This document shows, one piece after another, positions 5,008 to 62,822 of a DNA stretch of 63,556 nt (position 1 is the first letter of the stretch; each line of letters starts with the position of its first letter). Source of the DNA: Oceanibaculum indicum P24. Its GTDB lineage: Bacteria > Pseudomonadota > Alphaproteobacteria > Oceanibaculales > Oceanibaculaceae. The notes below the pieces were generated by a model, which was not told the DNA's origin, made no database searches, and worked only from the letters and a program-made list of their open reading frames with translations. The stretch covers positions 1-63,556 of the forward strand of contig NZ_AMRL01000022.1 of assembly GCF_000299935.1 (NCBI RefSeq), written 5' to 3'. Made by a program: the position numbers and the translations under genes.

Positions 5008-6438
<1,431 letters not shown>

Positions 6439-6491
6439 CGGCCACCCCCCGCTTTCCTGAATCGCACCCGCTGACGGGAGAAGGCTGACAA

Positions 6492-6902
6492 ATGGCCGAA
6501 ACCACGAACTTCGAGCTGGTCTCGCCGGAAAAGCTGCTGGTTTCGCAGCCGGTGGAGATGGTTGTGGTGCCGGGCGCCGAGGGGTATTTCGGTGTCCTGC
6601 CGCGCCATGCCCCCTTCATCTCGACCCTGATTCCCGGCGTCATCCAGATTTATGAGGGTGGCCAGGTGAAGGAACGCATCTTCGTCGCCGGCGGCTTCGC
6701 CGAGGTGACGGAGGATCGCTGCACGGTTCTGGCCGAGGTGGCGATGCCGATGGGCGAGATCGACCGTGCCGCCGTCGAGCAGACCCTGAAGAACCTCGCC
6801 GAGGACCTTCAGGAGGCCAAGAGCGACGCCGAGAAGGCCGCCGTGCAGGACAAGATCGCGGTGGAACAGGCCAAGCTGCGTGCCCTGGATACCGGGAGCT
6901 GA
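6492..6902 (+). CDS. atpC: F1 ATP synthase subunit epsilon
   Basis: Epsilon subunit, 136 residues, last gene of the F1 operon. The N-terminal beta sandwich carries the family pattern FELVSPEKLLVSQPVEMVVVPG and FGVLPRHAPFI, and the C-terminal helical hairpin, which can inhibit ATP hydrolysis, follows. A good GGAGAAGG precedes the ATG by several bases. A strong hairpin terminator begins 32 bases after the stop, so the operon most likely ends here. Confidence 0.97.
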   Translation: MAETTNFELVSPEKLLVSQPVEMVVVPGAEGYFGVLPRHAPFISTLIPGVIQIYEGGQVKERIFVAGGFAEVTEDRCTVLAEVAMPMGEIDRAAVEQTLKNLAEDLQEAKSDAEKAAVQDKIAVEQAKLRALDTGS

Positions 6903-6934
6903 TCCAGCTTCGGCCTGCGCCGGAAGACAATCAG

Positions 6935-6965
6935 GCGGGACCCTTTCGGGTCCCGCTTTTTTTTG
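6935..6965 (+). terminator. Rho-independent terminator of atpHAGDC
   Basis: Perfect 9-bp stem GCGGGACCC / GGGTCCCGC with a TTTC loop, then eight T residues. It is the clearest intrinsic terminator in the window and stands directly behind atpC. Confidence 0.93.
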
Positions 6966-6992
6966 TCCCCTGCGGCAGGCTGTCACGGAACA

Positions 6993-7022
6993 TTGCCAGC
7001 CCCTGCAACATTTACGTAATAT
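6993..7022 (+). promoter_or_regulatory. Candidate promoter of the ferritin-like gene
   Basis: TTGCCA at 6993-6998 and TAATAT at 7017-7022 are separated by 18 bases, in the gap after the atp terminator. It would give a leader of about 130 bases before the ATG at 7159. Seen by eye only. Confidence 0.4.
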
Positions 7023-7158
7023 GGCGGTAATTTCGCGCTACCCCTTTGATCTTGTTCCCAGCTTCCTTAAATAGGAGGCACCGATACGGTGGGATGCACG
7101 CCACGAAGAAGGGGGAGCGTCTGATTTCGTCTCGAACGGGAAAGGACGCGGCAAGCCG

Positions 7159-7983
7159 ATGAAGCATTGGAGCCTGGACGATATCGACTGGGGCCGTTTC
7201 GAGCCCGGCAAGATCGATTCGGAAATCGTGCCGGTCGTGAAGGCGGCCAGCATGGTCGAGTTCAATGGCGGGGTTTACGCCGACTATCTGTGCAACGTGT
7301 TCCACGATGACCCGGCCTTCCAGGAAGCCGCACGCAACTGGGCGGTCGAGGAGGTCCAGCATGGCGAAGCCCTGCGCCGCTGGGCGGAGATGGCTGACCC
7401 TTCCTTCGATTTCGATGCCGCCTTCAAGCGCTTCGCCGACACCATCACCCTGCCGATGGATATCGACCGCTCGGTGCGCGGCTCGCTGTCGGGTGAGCTA
7501 GTGGCCCGTTGCGTGGTCGAGATCGGGACCAGCTCCTATTACAGCGCGCTGGCCGAATCGACCGACGAGCCGGTGCTGAAGGAAATCTGCCAGCGCATCG
7601 CCGCCGACGAGCTGCGCCATTACAAGCTGTTCTACCAGCATCTGAAGCGCTACCAGGACATCGAAAAGCTGGGTGTGCTGAAGCGGCTGCGGGTGGCGCT
7701 GGGCCGCGTCGCCGAGAGCGAGGATGACGAGCTGGCCTTCGCCTATTACGCCGCCAACGACAATGGCCAGGGCGGTCCCTATGACCGCGATTTTTGCTGC
7801 CAGGCCTATCAGCAGCGTGCGCTGCGCTTCTACCGGCCGCAGCATGTGGAGCGCGGCATGGCGATGCTGTTCAAGGCCATCGGGCTGAAGCCGCATGGCA
7901 TGCTGAACCGCGTGGTGAACCGCATCGCCTGGTGGCTGCTGACCCGCAAGGCCGGCCGCATGGAAGCCGCCCGCGCAGCCTGA
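7159..7983 (+). CDS. Ferritin-like diiron protein
   Basis: Four-helix ferritin-like protein, 274 residues. The likely dimetal ligands can be placed: Glu34 on helix 1, the ExxH of EEVQHGE (Glu65, His68), Glu121 (or Glu113) on helix 3, and the ExxH of DELRHYKLF (Glu151, His154). This is the rubrerythrin / acyl-ACP desaturase pattern. No rubredoxin cysteines follow; the only extension is a basic C-terminal segment (residues about 240-270) with a hydrophobic WWLL stretch that might touch the membrane. A function in iron or peroxide handling or in a diiron oxidation is possible, but the substrate cannot be read from sequence. GGGAAAGGA precedes the ATG. Confidence 0.75.
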   Translation: MKHWSLDDIDWGRFEPGKIDSEIVPVVKAASMVEFNGGVYADYLCNVFHDDPAFQEAARNWAVEEVQHGEALRRWAEMADPSFDFDAAFKRFADTITLPMDIDRSVRGSLSGELVARCVVEIGTSSYYSALAESTDEPVLKEICQRIAADELRHYKLFYQHLKRYQDIEKLGVLKRLRVALGRVAESEDDELAFAYYAANDNGQGGPYDRDFCCQAYQQRALRFYRPQHVERGMAMLFKAIGLKPHGMLNRVVNRIAWWLLTRKAGRMEAARAA

Positions 7984-55648: not shown

Positions 55649-57658
55649 ATGAAAGCCCTCGACAACCTGAAGGTTTCGACCAAGATTTCCGCGAATTCCG
55701 GTCTGATCCTGCTACTGCTTCTTGCTTGCAGCGGCGTAACAATCTACGGGCTGATGACGGCCAAGGATTATTTCTCGGATTATCGCAACCTGACCGTCCA
55801 GACCGTCAGCGCCGCACAGGTGCAGACCTATATGCAAACCGCCCGCATCGGGGTTACCGGCTTTGTCCTGAACGGCAACAGGCAATCGGCAGGAATGGTT
55901 GCCGAAAACGTGGCGCAAGCCCAGGAGAGCATCCAGCAGATCCTCAACCGGATCGAGGACCCGGCCATCACCGCGCGGATGGAGGGTGCGGCCAGCCAGA
56001 TCCGCTCCTACGGGCAGACTTTCCAGACGCTGCTGCCGATGCAGGAACGCCGGGAACAGCTGACGCAGAAGATGCTGGAACTGGCGGAAAGCGCCAGTGC
56101 GGCGCTGAACGGCATGATGACCGGCCTGCAGCAGGAGTTCAACGCGGACGGCGTGTTCATGGCCAGCCAGGCGATGCGCCAGCTGATGCTGGCGCAAAAC
56201 CAGGCCAACCTGTTCCTGTCGGAGAATGGCAGCAAGCAGGTGGATGCGGTCGCCGAACATCTGGGCAAGCTGAAGGAATCCATGGTCGGGCTGGATGTCA
56301 TGGTGTCCAGCACCGAAGGCCGCCAGCATTTCGACGCGCTGAGCGCGGCCATCCCCCAATATGAGGCGGCCTTCAGCGAAGTCGTCGGCGTCACCTTGCG
56401 GCGCAACGCCACCATCGCCCACCGGCTGGATCGCATGGGCCCGCAGATCGCCAGCGATCTCGACCAGATCAAGGATGACAATGCCGCCCAGATGCGCACC
56501 ATCGGCGCGGCCGCCCTTGCCGCGATCGACAACTCCTTCATCGTCGGCGCGGGCGTTTCCGCCTTTGCCCTGCTCGTCGGCATCGCCCTGTCGCTGCTGA
56601 TCGGGCGCGGCATCGCCCGGCCCATCGTCGGCATGACGCAGGCCATGACAGCCCTGGCCGCCGGCGACAAGGAAAGCGAGATTCCCGCCCAGAACCGCAA
56701 GGACGAGGTCGGCCAGATGGCTGGCGCCGTCCAGGTGTTCAAGGAGAACATGATCCGCGCCGACGAGATGGCGGCCCAGCAGGCCGCCGAGCAGCAGGCA
56801 CGGGAGAGGCGCGCCAAGGCCATCGAGCAGATGACCCAGGATTTCGATGCCGCCGTCGCCGGGGTTCTGGCCCAGGTCGGTGCCGCCACGGCGGAATTGC
56901 AGTCCACCGCCTCCTCCATGTCAGCCACGGCGGAGCAGACCAACCATCAGGCCGGCGCTGTCGCCGCGGCCTCCGAACAGGCCGCCGCCAACGTCCAGAC
57001 CGTCGCCGCCGCCTCGGAGGAACTGTACAGCTCGATCCAGGAGATCGGCCGCCAGGTCAGCCAGTCCTCGACCATCGCCGACAAGGCGAGCAAGGATGCG
57101 CGCAAGACCAACGAGCAGGTTGAGGCCCTGGCCCACGCCGCGCAGAAGATCGGCGAGGTGGTCCGGCTGATCCAGGATATCGCCGAACAGACCAACCTGC
57201 TGGCGCTGAACGCGACCATCGAGGCGGCCCGCGCCGGCGAGGCCGGCAAGGGCTTCGCCGTGGTGGCGTCCGAGGTGAAGTCGCTGGCCACCCAGACCGC
57301 CCGCGCGACTGAGGAGATCGGCCAGCAGATCGGCAGCATCCAGACCGAGACGAGTTCGGCCGTCTCCGCCATCCGCGAGATCGGCCAGACCATCGCGGAG
57401 ATCAACGACATCGCCGCCAATATCGCGGCCGCCGTCGAGGAACAGGGCGCGGCGACGCAGGAAATCTCCCGCAATGTGCAGGAAGCGGCGAAGGGCACGC
57501 AGGAAGTGTCCACCAACATCGTCGGCGTCACCCAGGCCGCGGCCGAAACCGGCCAGGCCGCCGATCAGGTGACCCATTCCGCCGGCAATGTCGCCAGCCA
57601 GTCGGAAGAGCTGCGCCTGGCCGTGGAAAACTTCCTGAAGGGGGTCAGGGCCGCCTGA
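55649..57658 (+). CDS. Methyl-accepting chemotaxis protein
   Basis: Transmembrane chemoreceptor, 669 residues. A first membrane helix (about 17-35) leads to a periplasmic all-helical sensor of about 255 residues (36-290, long amphipathic repeats, no Cache or PAS signature, so probably a helical-bundle type). A second membrane helix (about 295-315), a HAMP domain (about 316-370) and the signalling coiled coil follow. Its conserved tip is [24 protein letters not shown] (residues near 525). No C-terminal CheR-binding pentapeptide is visible. It relays a signal to CheA. Stand-alone gene; no che genes in view. Confidence 0.95.
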
Positions 57659-57711: not shown

Positions 57712-58860
57712 TCAGCTCAGGAAATCGCCGATCCTCTCCGCCGCCTTCGCCACATCCTCCGTGGCGCCGGCATAGGACAGGCGGACAAAGCGGTTGCCCC
57801 GCGCCGGATCGAAATCCATGCCGGGTGTCAGCGCCACCCCGGTCTCGGCCAGTAGCCGGCGGCAGAATTCCGCGCTGTCATTGGTGAAGCGCCCGACATC
57901 GGCATAGATGTAGAAAGCACCGTCGGCCCGCGAGAACTCCGTGATGCCGGCCTTCGGCAGCGCCTCCAGCAGGATGTCCCGGTTGCGCCGGTAATTGGCA
58001 ACCAGCGCGTCCAGCTCCTCCGTGCAGTCGAACGCCGCCACCGCCGCATGCTGCGACAGGGCGGAGGCGGAGATGAACAGGTTCTGCCCCAGACACTCGA
58101 CCGGCCGGACCATATCCTCCGGCAGCACCAGCCAGCCCAGCCGCCAGCCGGTCATCGAGAAATATTTCGAGAAGCTGTTCACCACCACGGCACTGGCGGA
58201 GCTGGCCAGCGCGGTTGCCGCCCGCGCCTCGAACTCGATGCCGTGATAGATCTCGTCGGAGATCAGCCGGATGCCCTGCTCGTCGCAATAACGGGAAATC
58301 TCCGCCAGCCCCTCGGATGACACGATGCTGCCGGTCGGGTTGGCGGGGCTGGCCAGGATCAGCCCGTCGATGCGGCCCTTCTCCTGCATTTCTCGCAGCA
58401 GCGGCACTGTCGGCTGGTAGGCGCTGTCCGGCCCGGTCGGGATTTCCACCGGCTCCAGCCCCAGCGCCACCAGGATGTTGCGGTAGGCGGGATAGCCGGG
58501 GGCGGCCAGCGCCACCCGGTCGCCCGGCTCGAACGCTGCCAGGAAGGACAGGATGAAGCCGCCGGAGGAACCAGGCGTGACAACGATGCGCGCCGGATCG
58601 ACAGAGACGCCATAGCGCGCCCGGTAATGCTCGGCCAGCCTTTCGCGCAGGGGCAGGATACCGAAAGCATCGGTATAGCCCAGCAGCTCGCTGTCGATGG
58701 CGCGCTTGGCCGCTTCCAGCACTTTGGACGGTGCCCCGGTCGAGGGCTGACCGATTTCCAGATGCAGCACATCGGCGCCGGTGGCCGCGCGCTCATTGGC
58801 GGCGCGCATCACATCCATGACGATAAAGCCGGGAATCCGCCCCCGCTTGGCGATCTTCAT
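57712..58860 (-). CDS. PLP-dependent class I/II aminotransferase
   Basis: Fold-type I aminotransferase, 382 residues. The PLP lysine is in NSFSKYFSMTGWRLG. ASPANPTGS supplies the cofactor-contacting Asn, YHGIEF follows SDEI, and the C-terminal Arg is in GNRFVRLSYAG. It belongs to the aspartate-aminotransferase-like group; the substrate is uncertain. ATG 58860 follows AAGGAACAGCGT; the longer frame adds 32 codons with no conserved character. The gene reads toward the bidirectional terminator. Confidence 0.93.
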   Translation of the reverse strand: MKIAKRGRIPGFIVMDVMRAANERAATGADVLHLEIGQPSTGAPSKVLEAAKRAIDSELLGYTDAFGILPLRERLAEHYRARYGVSVDPARIVVTPGSSGGFILSFLAAFEPGDRVALAAPGYPAYRNILVALGLEPVEIPTGPDSAYQPTVPLLREMQEKGRIDGLILASPANPTGSIVSSEGLAEISRYCDEQGIRLISDEIYHGIEFEARAATALASSASAVVVNSFSKYFSMTGWRLGWLVLPEDMVRPVECLGQNLFISASALSQHAAVAAFDCTEELDALVANYRRNRDILLEALPKAGITEFSRADGAFYIYADVGRFTNDSAEFCRRLLAETGVALTPGMDFDPARGNRFVRLSYAGATEDVAKAAERIGDFLS

Positions 58861-58901
58861 ACGCTGTTCCTTGTTCTTACGATCGGTACGCTTCGAATCC
58901 G

Positions 58902-60494
58902 TCAGCCGCCGCTGGCGGCAAGCCCATAGCCACGCGGATCGGTGGCACGGATGCATTGCGGGTTACCCGGCAGGCCCTGCGGACAATGCGCCGCCTGCAC
59001 CCGGCCGAAATGCCGCCCCTCTTCCAGCCGGTAGCCGCGCGCGGCAAGGTCGGCACGCACCGCCTCCGGCAGGGTCTTCTCATACCAGAGCGTATGGGCG
59101 GTGCCGCCCAGATGCAGACGCGGTACGGCGACCGCCTGATCCAGCGGCATTTCCGCCTGGACCGCATCCAGCGTTACGCGGACCAGCGCGCTGGTGGCGG
59201 AGAAGCCGCCGCTGCCGGTGCCGGTGAAATAGACATTCTTGCTGTTCTCGTTGAACACGATCAGCGCATGGCCGACCGGCCCCAGCTGGCCGGCGGGGGC
59301 CGGCGGTGGCGCCACGATGAAGCCGAGGCCCGGCACCTTGCGCAGCGTGCCGAACGGCGTGTTCATGGTGAAGCTGCAGGCCACCATCTGGCCGGCACGG
59401 TCATAGGTGACGATGCCCGCCGCCCCCGGCCCGCCATGCGCCGGCGCGGAAAGCGGCAGCTCCGCCGTGTCCCCGTCAGCCTTGGACCGGTCGTGGCCGC
59501 GCATCGCTGCCTCAGCCTCTTCCTCGCCCAGCGGGCGGACCTTGCCATCGGCGCGAATCTGGTCGGCAACCGCCCGGTGCGCGCGCAGGCTGGCGTCGGC
59601 CAGCAGATGCGGGCGGTCGGCAGGGGCCGCAGCGGCATAGGAACGGCCATCGGTCAGCAGCCGCCACAGGCTGCCAGCAATCGCGCCATTCACCGAATCG
59701 GTGCTGGCCAGCACCACCTTGTGGACGCCGAGTTCCAGCCCGCCATGCGGGCGCCAGCGCGGCACATAGGCCTGCAGCGCCGCTGGCGGCAGGCTGCCGC
59801 CGCTCTGCTCGATGGCGACGGAAAGCTCGCGCGCCATCCGGCCGGTATAGAGGTCGCCGATGCCGGCCTGCCGCAGCCGGCCCAGCGTTGCGCCAAGGTC
59901 GAGCTGGGTCAGCGGGTCGCCTTCGCGAACCAGTCGACCTTGCGTCACGAAATTCTGCCGCATGTCGGGAATCTGTGCGATGGCGCGCCCGGCGAAGGCC
60001 ACATCCTCGGCCAGCGCGCGCGAGACCGGCTCACCGAAACGCGCCAGGCGCTCGGCCGGCAGGATCAGCTGATCGATCGGCAGGCGGCCATAGCGCGCAT
60101 GCAGGGCGAACACGCCGCGTGGCGCCGCCGGGATCGCCACGGCGTTCTGTTCGGTGCCGGAGGCCACAGCCGGAAATTCCAGCGCCTCGCCGACATTGGC
60201 GCGCCGGTCATAGACCGCGCACGCACCGCCGCCGCCAAGCCCGACCGAGGAGGGCAACGTCACCGACAGCGCGAAATAGCCGGCGACCGCCGCATCTGCG
60301 GCCGTGCCGCCCGCCGCCAGCACGTCGCGCGCGACCAGCGCCGCCCTCGGTTCCCCCGATACCGCGCCACCGACGAAGTCCGGCGCGATGAACTGCGTCG
60401 TTTCCTTGCCGCTGCAACCGGCCAGAACGCCCAGAGAGCATGCCAGGCCCATGGCCGCGGCTATCGGACGACGCCAGGCGGTCAGTGACAGCAT
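58902..60494 (-). CDS. Gamma-glutamyltransferase-fold lipoprotein lacking the catalytic Thr
   Basis: 530 residues. A lipobox LAGC (Cys27) marks an outer- or inner-membrane lipoprotein facing the periplasm. The rest follows the gamma-glutamyltransferase fold from VGGAVSGEPRAALVARDVL onward. The autocatalytic Thr at the start of the small subunit (TTH in active enzymes) is replaced: residues 353-365 read HGGPGAAGIVTYD, with Ala358-Ala359-Gly360. The Arg that holds the glutamate carboxylate (RE.AP motif) is also missing; the stretch reads EALEFPAVAS. It should neither self-cleave nor transfer gamma-glutamyl groups. It precedes the aminotransferase gene on the minus strand. Confidence 0.85.
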   Translation of the reverse strand: MLSLTAWRRPIAAAMGLACSLGVLAGCSGKETTQFIAPDFVGGAVSGEPRAALVARDVLAAGGTAADAAVAGYFALSVTLPSSVGLGGGGACAVYDRRANVGEALEFPAVASGTEQNAVAIPAAPRGVFALHARYGRLPIDQLILPAERLARFGEPVSRALAEDVAFAGRAIAQIPDMRQNFVTQGRLVREGDPLTQLDLGATLGRLRQAGIGDLYTGRMARELSVAIEQSGGSLPPAALQAYVPRWRPHGGLELGVHKVVLASTDSVNGAIAGSLWRLLTDGRSYAAAAPADRPHLLADASLRAHRAVADQIRADGKVRPLGEEEAEAAMRGHDRSKADGDTAELPLSAPAHGGPGAAGIVTYDRAGQMVACSFTMNTPFGTLRKVPGLGFIVAPPPAPAGQLGPVGHALIVFNENSKNVYFTGTGSGGFSATSALVRVTLDAVQAEMPLDQAVAVPRLHLGGTAHTLWYEKTLPEAVRADLAARGYRLEEGRHFGRVQAAHCPQGLPGNPQCIRATDPRGYGLAASGG

Positions 60495-60569
60495 AATCTC
60501 GAAAACCTTTCATTGACGGGAGGGACTGCCCCGCTTACTTACCAAGGCGGGGCGAGGAGAGACGCTACA

Positions 60570-61919
60570 GTGCTTCACAAATTCCGCGTTCTGGTCGCCA
60601 TAATCCTGTCGGTCGTCATAGCGGGTTTGCCGCTGCCGGCGGCGGCAGCGGGCATGAGCCTGATTCGCGACACGGAAATCGAAAATACCATCCGCGACTA
60701 TGCGACGCCACTGTTCGCAGCAGCCGGGCTGCAGCCGGACAATATCCGCATCTTCATCGTCAACAGCGACGACATCAATGCCTTCGTTGCCGGTGGTCAG
60801 AACCTGTTCCTAAATACCGGCCTGCTGGTGCGCTCCGACAATCCCAACCAGATCATGGGGGTCATCGCGCACGAAACCGGCCACATTGCCGGCGGTCACC
60901 TGGCCCGGCTGCAGGACGAGTTGCGCCGCGCCAGCATCGCGCAGATCCTGTCGATGGTGCTGGGCGCCGTCGCCGTCGCCGCGTCCGGCCAGGGCGAGGC
61001 CGGCATGGGCGTCATGGTCGGCGGCTCGGAAATGGCGCGCCGTGTGCTGCTGCAATATAACCGCAACCAGGAACAGGCGGCCGATCAGGCCGGCGTGAAA
61101 TATCTGGATGCCATCGGCCAGTCCAGCCGCGGCATGGTGGAAATCCTGGAAAAGCTGAGCGGCCAGGAAATGCTGCTGGCCAGCCGCCAGTCGCCCTATG
61201 TGCGCAGCCATCCGCTGACCAGCGAACGCATGACCTTCGTGCGCAACCACATGGCCAATTCGCCCTACGCCGATGCGCCGCCGCCCGAGGGCTTCCCGAT
61301 GCGCCACAAGCGCATGGTGGCGAAGCTGCATGGTTTCATGCATCCGCCCGGCCGGACGCTGATGGAATATCCGGAAAGCGACACCAGCCTGCCGGCGCGC
61401 TATGCGCGGGCCATCGCCTATTACCGCATCCCGGACCTGAACCGCGCCGTGCCCGCCATCGACGCGCTGATCGCCGAGCATCCCGACGATCCCTATTTCC
61501 ATGAGCTGAAAGGCCAGATGCTCTATGAAAATGGCCGCGTCGCCGAGGCGCAGAAGGCCTATGCCGAGGCCATCGAGCGCCTGCCCGACGCGCCGCTGAT
61601 CCGCGCTTCCCATGCCGAGACGCTGCTGGCCCTGAATCAGGAGGAGCCCACCCGCCGGGCGCTGGCGGAACTGCAGCAATCAGTACGCCAGCAGCCGGAA
61701 AACAGCCGCGCCTGGCGTCAGCTCGCCATCGCCCATGGCCGGTTGGGCGATACCGGCCTTGCCGCCCTGGCGCTCGCCGAGGAGGCGCTGCTGACCGGCC
61801 AGCGCCAGACCGCGCGGCAGCAGGCGCGCCGCGCCCAGGCCCAGCTTCCCGCCGGCTCGCCGGGCTGGCTGCGCGCCGAGGATATCGAGACCACGACGCG
61901 GCGCGACGCCGAACGCTGA
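60570..61919 (+). CDS. M48 metalloprotease with TPR repeats, BepA-like
   Basis: Periplasmic zinc protease of 449 residues. A signal peptide (about 1-27, cleavage after AAAAG) is followed by the M48 domain with HETGH at 101-105 (zinc His101 and His105, catalytic Glu102) and the third ligand Glu168 in NRNQEQAADQAG. The C-terminal half (from about 285) has helical TPR-like repeats (NRAVPAIDALIAEHPDDPYF, AEAQKAYAEAIERLP). This is the BepA/YfgC plan, which checks outer-membrane protein assembly. GTG 60570 is used because GAGGAGAGA lies before it and the signal starts there; a longer frame begins with non-signal residues. Confidence 0.93.
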   Translation: MLHKFRVLVAIILSVVIAGLPLPAAAAGMSLIRDTEIENTIRDYATPLFAAAGLQPDNIRIFIVNSDDINAFVAGGQNLFLNTGLLVRSDNPNQIMGVIAHETGHIAGGHLARLQDELRRASIAQILSMVLGAVAVAASGQGEAGMGVMVGGSEMARRVLLQYNRNQEQAADQAGVKYLDAIGQSSRGMVEILEKLSGQEMLLASRQSPYVRSHPLTSERMTFVRNHMANSPYADAPPPEGFPMRHKRMVAKLHGFMHPPGRTLMEYPESDTSLPARYARAIAYYRIPDLNRAVPAIDALIAEHPDDPYFHELKGQMLYENGRVAEAQKAYAEAIERLPDAPLIRASHAETLLALNQEEPTRRALAELQQSVRQQPENSRAWRQLAIAHGRLGDTGLAALALAEEALLTGQRQTARQQARRAQAQLPAGSPGWLRAEDIETTTRRDAER

Positions 61920-62006: not shown

Positions 62007-62822
62007 GTGGGTCGATATACGGCGAACCCTCGTTCAGCCCTCGCTCTGGCCGTGCTGGCACTGGCCGGTGCATTTCTGATGCTGGCAGGCGCCCCCGTCC
62101 GGGCCGATACGCCAAAGGCGGACGCCGCCCCTGCGGCAACCCCGGCACCGGCTGGCTTCGACGCGACGCAGAAGCAGGCCATCGAGCAGATTGTCCGCGA
62201 TTATCTGCTGGCCAACCCGGAAGTGCTGCGCGACGCCCTGATCGAGCTGGGCAGCCGCGAGAAGGCCGCCGCCGAGGATCAGCGCAAGCAGCGCATCGCC
62301 GATCTGCGCGCCGAGTTGGAGCGCGAGCCAGACGATCCCGTGCTCGGCAATCCCGACGGGGCGATCACCATCGTCGAGTTCTTCGATTACCAGTGCGGCT
62401 ACTGCAAGGCGATGAAGCCGGTCATGCAGAACATCCTGGCCAGCGAGAAGGATGTCCGCGTGGTGATGAAGGAATTCCCGATCCTGAGCGCGGTCTCCGT
62501 CACGGCCGCGCGTGCCGCGCTGGCTGCCCGCGAACAGGGCAAGTACCAGGCGATGCACGACCGGCTGATGGGCTATCGCGGCCGGCTGAGCGACGAGGCG
62601 GTGTTCGCCATCGCCGGCGAGGCCGGGCTGGATATCGAGCGGCTGAAGGCAGACATGCAGGCGCCGGCGGTGGCGGCGGTGCTGGAACGCAACCAGCAGC
62701 TGGCCGAGCGTCTGGAGATCAGCGGCACGCCCAGCTTCATCGTCGGCGAGACGCTGGTTCCCGGCGCCGTGAACGAGGAAGGACTGCGCAAGCTGATCGC
62801 CGAAACCCGGGCAAAGCTGTAA
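62007..62822 (+). CDS. DsbA-family thiol oxidoreductase (Com1/ScsC-like)
   Basis: Periplasmic protein of 271 residues. The signal is about 1-33, then a helical N-terminal segment (50-110) of the kind that oligomerises ScsC-like proteins. The thioredoxin fold has the active site DYQCGYCK (Cys130, Cys133) and the cis-Pro loop SGTPSFIV. It may oxidise, reduce or isomerise disulphides, and the CGYC pair occurs in isomerase-type homologues. GTG 62007 follows AAGGAGAAAG. The 87-base gap from the M48 gene allows co-transcription. Confidence 0.93.
   Translation: MGRYTANPRSALALAVLALAGAFLMLAGAPVRADTPKADAAPAATPAPAGFDATQKQAIEQIVRDYLLANPEVLRDALIELGSREKAAAEDQRKQRIADLRAELEREPDDPVLGNPDGAITIVEFFDYQCGYCKAMKPVMQNILASEKDVRVVMKEFPILSAVSVTAARAALAAREQGKYQAMHDRLMGYRGRLSDEAVFAIAGEAGLDIERLKADMQAPAVAAVLERNQQLAERLEISGTPSFIVGETLVPGAVNEEGLRKLIAETRAKL

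Follow-up and report, generated by a model that had tools for sequence, protein, structure and literature searches.

Gamma-glutamyltransferases (GGTs) carry a self-cleaving, catalytic Thr that opens the small subunit and lies within a TTH motif, and the Arg of their RE.AP motif binds the alpha-carboxylate of glutamate. In E. coli GGT, the T391A substitution abolishes both self-processing and activity (PMC8062742). We found no description of an inactive bacterial GGT-like family in the open papers that we searched. The gene studied here lies in a stretch of Oceanibaculum indicum P24 DNA of 63,556 nucleotides that was analysed as a whole (the window; Table 1), and a sequence-only reading had singled it out as an intact gene for a GGT-fold lipoprotein that lacks its nucleophile. 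Its reading frame is indeed uninterrupted. The protein scores 206.9 bits against Pfam PF01019 (G_glu_transpept), above the gathering threshold of 27, and 138 bits against the NCBIfam GGT equivalog TIGR00066, below the cut-off of 358.

Table 1. Features in the window. Residue counts are from family members or aligned canonical GGTs; locus counts refer to the 109 family loci whose upstream flank spans 3.5 kb or more (M48, DsbA) and the 109 whose downstream flank spans 1.8 kb or more (same-strand aminotransferase), with neighbours called by blastp at 1e-6, which could miss divergent genes.
Feature	Coordinates	Strand	Remark
Predicted GGT-fold lipoprotein gene, 530 aa	58902..60494	-	family member under study
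A358-A359-G360 at catalytic TTH site	59415..59423	-	TTH in all 50 canonical GGTs; drifts within family
E106-G113 (EFPAVASG) at glutamate-binding RE.AP segment	60156..60179	-	Arg in 48/50 canonical, 7/118 family
Lipobox L24-A25-G26-C27, Ser28 at +2	60414..60425	-	Cys27 in 116/118 family members
Cys92	60219..60221	-	117/117 family; canonical mostly Met
Cys373	59376..59378	-	117/117 family; canonical mostly N/V/L/I
Cys504	58983..58985	-	115/115 family
Cys514	58953..58955	-	115/115 family
Class I aminotransferase	57712..58861	-	downstream, about 40 bp past the GGT-like stop; 90/109 family loci
M48 metalloprotease with TPR domain, BepA-like	60513..61919	+	divergent; 100/109 family loci
DsbA-fold thiol:disulfide protein, ScsC N-terminal domain	62007..62822	+	88/109 family loci
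Chemoreceptor-like gene	55649..57658	+	

We counted residues at each site in an alignment of 118 family members and 50 canonical GGTs. The sequence-only reading had proposed that AAG replaces TTH at residues 358-360 and that the RE.AP motif is lost, and both substitutions held up: every aligned canonical GGT carries TTH, and Pro108 of the window protein stands where nearly all of them keep the Arg. Two further losses were not on that reading's list. The LNNxMDDF stretch, a pocket motif of the small subunit, is deleted in the window protein and absent from all 118 family members, and the SSM motif is gone, its Ser being left in five of the 118. We saw no alternative alignment placing a Thr or Ser at the nucleophile of the window protein, as the earlier reading had considered; the nearest such residues are Ser349 and Thr363. 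Thr376 aligns with the second active-site Thr, a column that holds Thr or Ser in 102/117 family members. A protein from a genome of the same genus (G001) is 92% identical and also carries AAG, and homologues in two other genomes (G002 and G003) carry AAS, so the AAG in the window is not a sequencing error. At the level of sequence, loss of GGT catalysis in the window protein is well supported.

An AlphaFold2 model built with a 36-sequence alignment had a mean pLDDT of 91.4 and a pTM of 0.90, and its best match among solved structures was the unprocessed E. coli GGT T391A (Z 45.0, rmsd 2.6, 471 residues). Based on this model and its structural matches, the GGT fold is confidently predicted over the full length of the protein, in agreement with the earlier claim that the fold is well kept. 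Since T391A abolishes self-processing and activity in the E. coli enzyme, the window protein, as modelled, looks like a naturally occurring counterpart of that mutant.

We searched for relatives of the protein and then scanned 241 alphaproteobacterial genomes with a profile. The matches fell into two groups, one full-length and higher-scoring, the other made up of lower-scoring canonical GGTs that aligned mainly to profile positions 33-363. The family was carried by 94 of the 241 genomes, a count obtained with a profile built from family members, which could have missed divergent members without the cysteines. Named records with the family include Roseomonas, Roseococcus, Neoroseomonas, Elioraea, Reyranella, Acidocella and Rhodospirillales MAGs, and in one genome (G231) the gene sits on a 1.13-Mb plasmid. 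Across 299 genomes of the phylum, every full-length family-type match lay within Alphaproteobacteria, and no match outside the class exceeded about 231 bits, those matches having canonical coverage. In these searches, the family was thus seen only in alphaproteobacteria.

Besides the window protein, its genome encodes several GGT paralogues, at least three of them with TTH. We built a tree from 30 family members and 28 GGTs, these paralogues among them, in which a branch with support of 100/100 separated the family from the canonical GGTs. The window protein has this single origin together with the lipobox Cys and Cys92, Cys373, Cys504 and Cys514, the features that mark the pseudo-GGT lipoprotein family. 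Estimates of dN/dS were 0.12 between the window gene and its G001 counterpart and 0.07-0.27 in four other pairs, placing the family under purifying selection; it is old and has been kept intact by selection. Purifying selection on a family of one origin that stands apart from true GGTs is most naturally explained by a selected role that does not involve GGT chemistry. The suggestion of a selected, non-enzymatic or altered role was therefore upheld as to selection, but not as to a new hydrolase chemistry, of which there was no sign. Two members stand out in their gene structure. One genome (G244; L204 and L205) holds two family copies, each with its own M48 gene beside it, which suggests duplication of the entire locus, and in another (G061; L190, about 6138-7778) an in-frame stop interrupts the gene, so that the copy is either broken or wrongly sequenced.

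Within the family, the old active site drifts. The nucleophile column, Thr in all canonical GGTs, contains 37 Ser, 27 Ala, 24 Gly, 11 Thr, 4 Gln, 4 Glu, 3 Phe and a few others, so that Thr is found in about 10% of members and Ser or Thr in 48/117. The third position of the motif is His in no member. On the family tree, column 358 changed at least 42 times, compared with no change at F107 and 5 at F381. AAG itself is found in only seven of the 118 members, scattered over the family; since the column drifts, we rejected AAG as a clade signature, a point that the sequence-only reading had proposed to check. The new hydrolase chemistry that it had also raised fared no better, as no conserved Ser, Thr or Cys takes the nucleophile's place at its site. 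Where column 358 does hold Thr or Ser, some residual self-processing may persist.

Also conserved are four family-specific cysteines that the earlier reading had not listed (Table 1). Apart from the lipid Cys, 110/116 members have four cysteines and no more; 23 of the 50 canonical GGTs have no Cys beyond residue 40. In the model, Cys504 lies within strand 498-508 and Cys514 just ahead of strand 515-518, a placement that makes a hairpin disulfide plausible. We infer that the four residues probably form two disulfides, C504-C514 being the probable first pair and C92-C373, by elimination, the probable second. The lipobox was found where the sequence-only reading had put it, but as a family-conserved feature and not as a unique gain, because 17/50 canonical GGTs also have Cys at that column. 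In E. coli, the residue at +2 after the lipid Cys directs membrane sorting. This residue is mostly Gly, Ser or Ala in the family, which by analogy with the E. coli rule suggests an outer-membrane location.

We then compared the surroundings of the gene. The arrangement with an aminotransferase on one side and M48 and DsbA-fold genes on the other is conserved across many families of Alphaproteobacteria, and among nine family loci without an M48 neighbour, DsbA is still close in eight. The M48 neighbour scores 157 bits against the BepA model NF052400, under its cut-off of 570. The aminotransferase reading frame as listed (57712-58956, minus strand) overlaps the GGT-like gene; its start is most likely the Met at 58861 (MKIAKRG), not 58956. 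Between rne and the aminotransferase, the window also holds a chemoreceptor-like gene, with a similar one in G001 and none at most other loci. In 13 of the 19 examined genomes that lack the family, the aminotransferase and M48 genes adjoin directly with the pseudo-GGT gene cleanly absent; in five more, rne and M48 adjoin, mostly with DsbA beyond. The locus is thus an old one that holds together without the gene, which is either present in it or was cleanly lost. As this locus exists without the pseudo-GGT gene, the neighbourhood is weak functional evidence, and co-location with M48 and DsbA is a lead, not a proof.

Taken together, we think it rather probable that the window protein is a pseudo-GGT: a non-catalytic, disulfide-stabilised envelope lipoprotein that acts by binding or scaffolding. 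The binding role suggested by the sequence-only reading is plausible. After export, the protein would receive its lipid at Cys27 and probably reside on the periplasmic side of the outer membrane. Because the self-cleaving, catalytic Thr is gone, it would remain one uncleaved chain; the two probable disulfides would give it rigidity, and the retained alpha-beta-beta-alpha body would be a scaffold, or a receptor for an envelope ligand or partner. The most plausible setting would be envelope protein biogenesis or quality control, beside the BepA-like M48 protease and DsbA. A bolder version, in which the family is a widespread and previously unrecognised alphaproteobacterial outer-membrane lipoprotein, derived from a self-cleaving amidase by loss of the active site and gain of two disulfides, that serves with M48 and DsbA as a structural or client-binding part of outer-membrane protein assembly or quality control, is speculative and unlikely to hold as a whole.

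A more specific form of the binding or scaffold explanation makes the protein a dedicated accessory lipoprotein that delivers outer-membrane protein clients to the BepA-like M48 protease or controls its activity, while DsbA introduces the disulfides of the lipoprotein. E. coli BepA takes part in the maturation of LptD at the BAM complex (PMC8423444), and the frequency of the divergent M48 and DsbA genes at family loci, over many families of the class, fits such a role. However, M48 keeps the aminotransferase, rne or DsbA as a near neighbour in every one of the 19 genomes examined that lack the family, so its linkage is independent of the pseudo-GGT gene, and it was found in 219/241 genomes, far more than the family. 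Three genomes (G029, G147 and G227) carry the lipoprotein with no M48 match genome-wide at E 1e-25, which weakens the idea of an obligate M48 partner. We regard the accessory role as tentative at best. At the three loci concerned (L173, L207 and L222), the pseudo-GGT and DsbA genes stay close neighbours. A link to the co-oriented aminotransferase, with the lipoprotein binding an amino acid, a peptide or a cell-wall fragment, would fit the same-strand aminotransferase gene about 40 bp downstream in the window and its retention at most family loci, and the GGT fold offers a natural pocket; but the residues for glutamate binding have been lost, the aminotransferase also occupies the locus where the lipoprotein is missing, and no transporter was seen nearby within the window, making this reading unlikely.

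We find it improbable that the protein is still a hydrolase of changed chemistry, in which Ser or Thr at 358/359 self-processes in some members, or an invariant Cys is the nucleophile, acting on another substrate. The Ser or Thr at column 358 in a sizeable minority of members, some of which read TTG or TTS, the retention of Thr376 as Thr or Ser, and the invariance of Cys92 and Cys373 would all agree with it. Yet the old nucleophile site has no conserved residue, the window protein has Ala at both 358 and 359, and the substrate-binding side (SSM, the Pro of GSPGG, the Arg and LNN..DDF) is lost throughout the family; four Cys, an even number in a lipoprotein that is exported, are more in keeping with disulfides than with catalysis. 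That the window gene is a decaying pseudogene or an annotation artefact is scarcely credible: the one member broken by a stop (L190) is set against intact frames nearly everywhere, invariant columns and dN/dS values that refute decay.

Because Pfam places the family in GGT, its members are likely to be annotated as gamma-glutamyltransferase, a function that is almost certainly absent. The pseudo-GGT family represents an ancient switch from enzyme to non-enzyme that was kept through the diversification of the class, and its fixed position next to DsbA and a BepA-like protease is a testable starting point for tracing an envelope component in a large group of bacteria. Among known systems, the likeness to the periplasmic M48-TPR protease BepA belongs to the divergent neighbour and not to the window protein. 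CapD of Bacillus anthracis, HpxW, the cephalosporin acylase 2NLZ and LmbA were structural matches in which the GGT fold has a non-glutathione role, although we saw no close sequence relation between them and the window protein; CapD is itself catalytically active, as a Thr enzyme. E. coli Ggt (PDB 2DBU; T391A precursor 2E0W) matches the modelled fold of the window protein along its entire length (Z 45, 471 residues, 23% identity), and the two have in common the Pfam family PF01019 and the C-terminal DPR..G motif. Compared with that enzyme, the window protein is without the nucleophile, TTH, the REXAP Arg, the LNN..DDF stretch and SSM, whereas the pseudo-GGT family has four extra invariant Cys and a family-wide lipobox.
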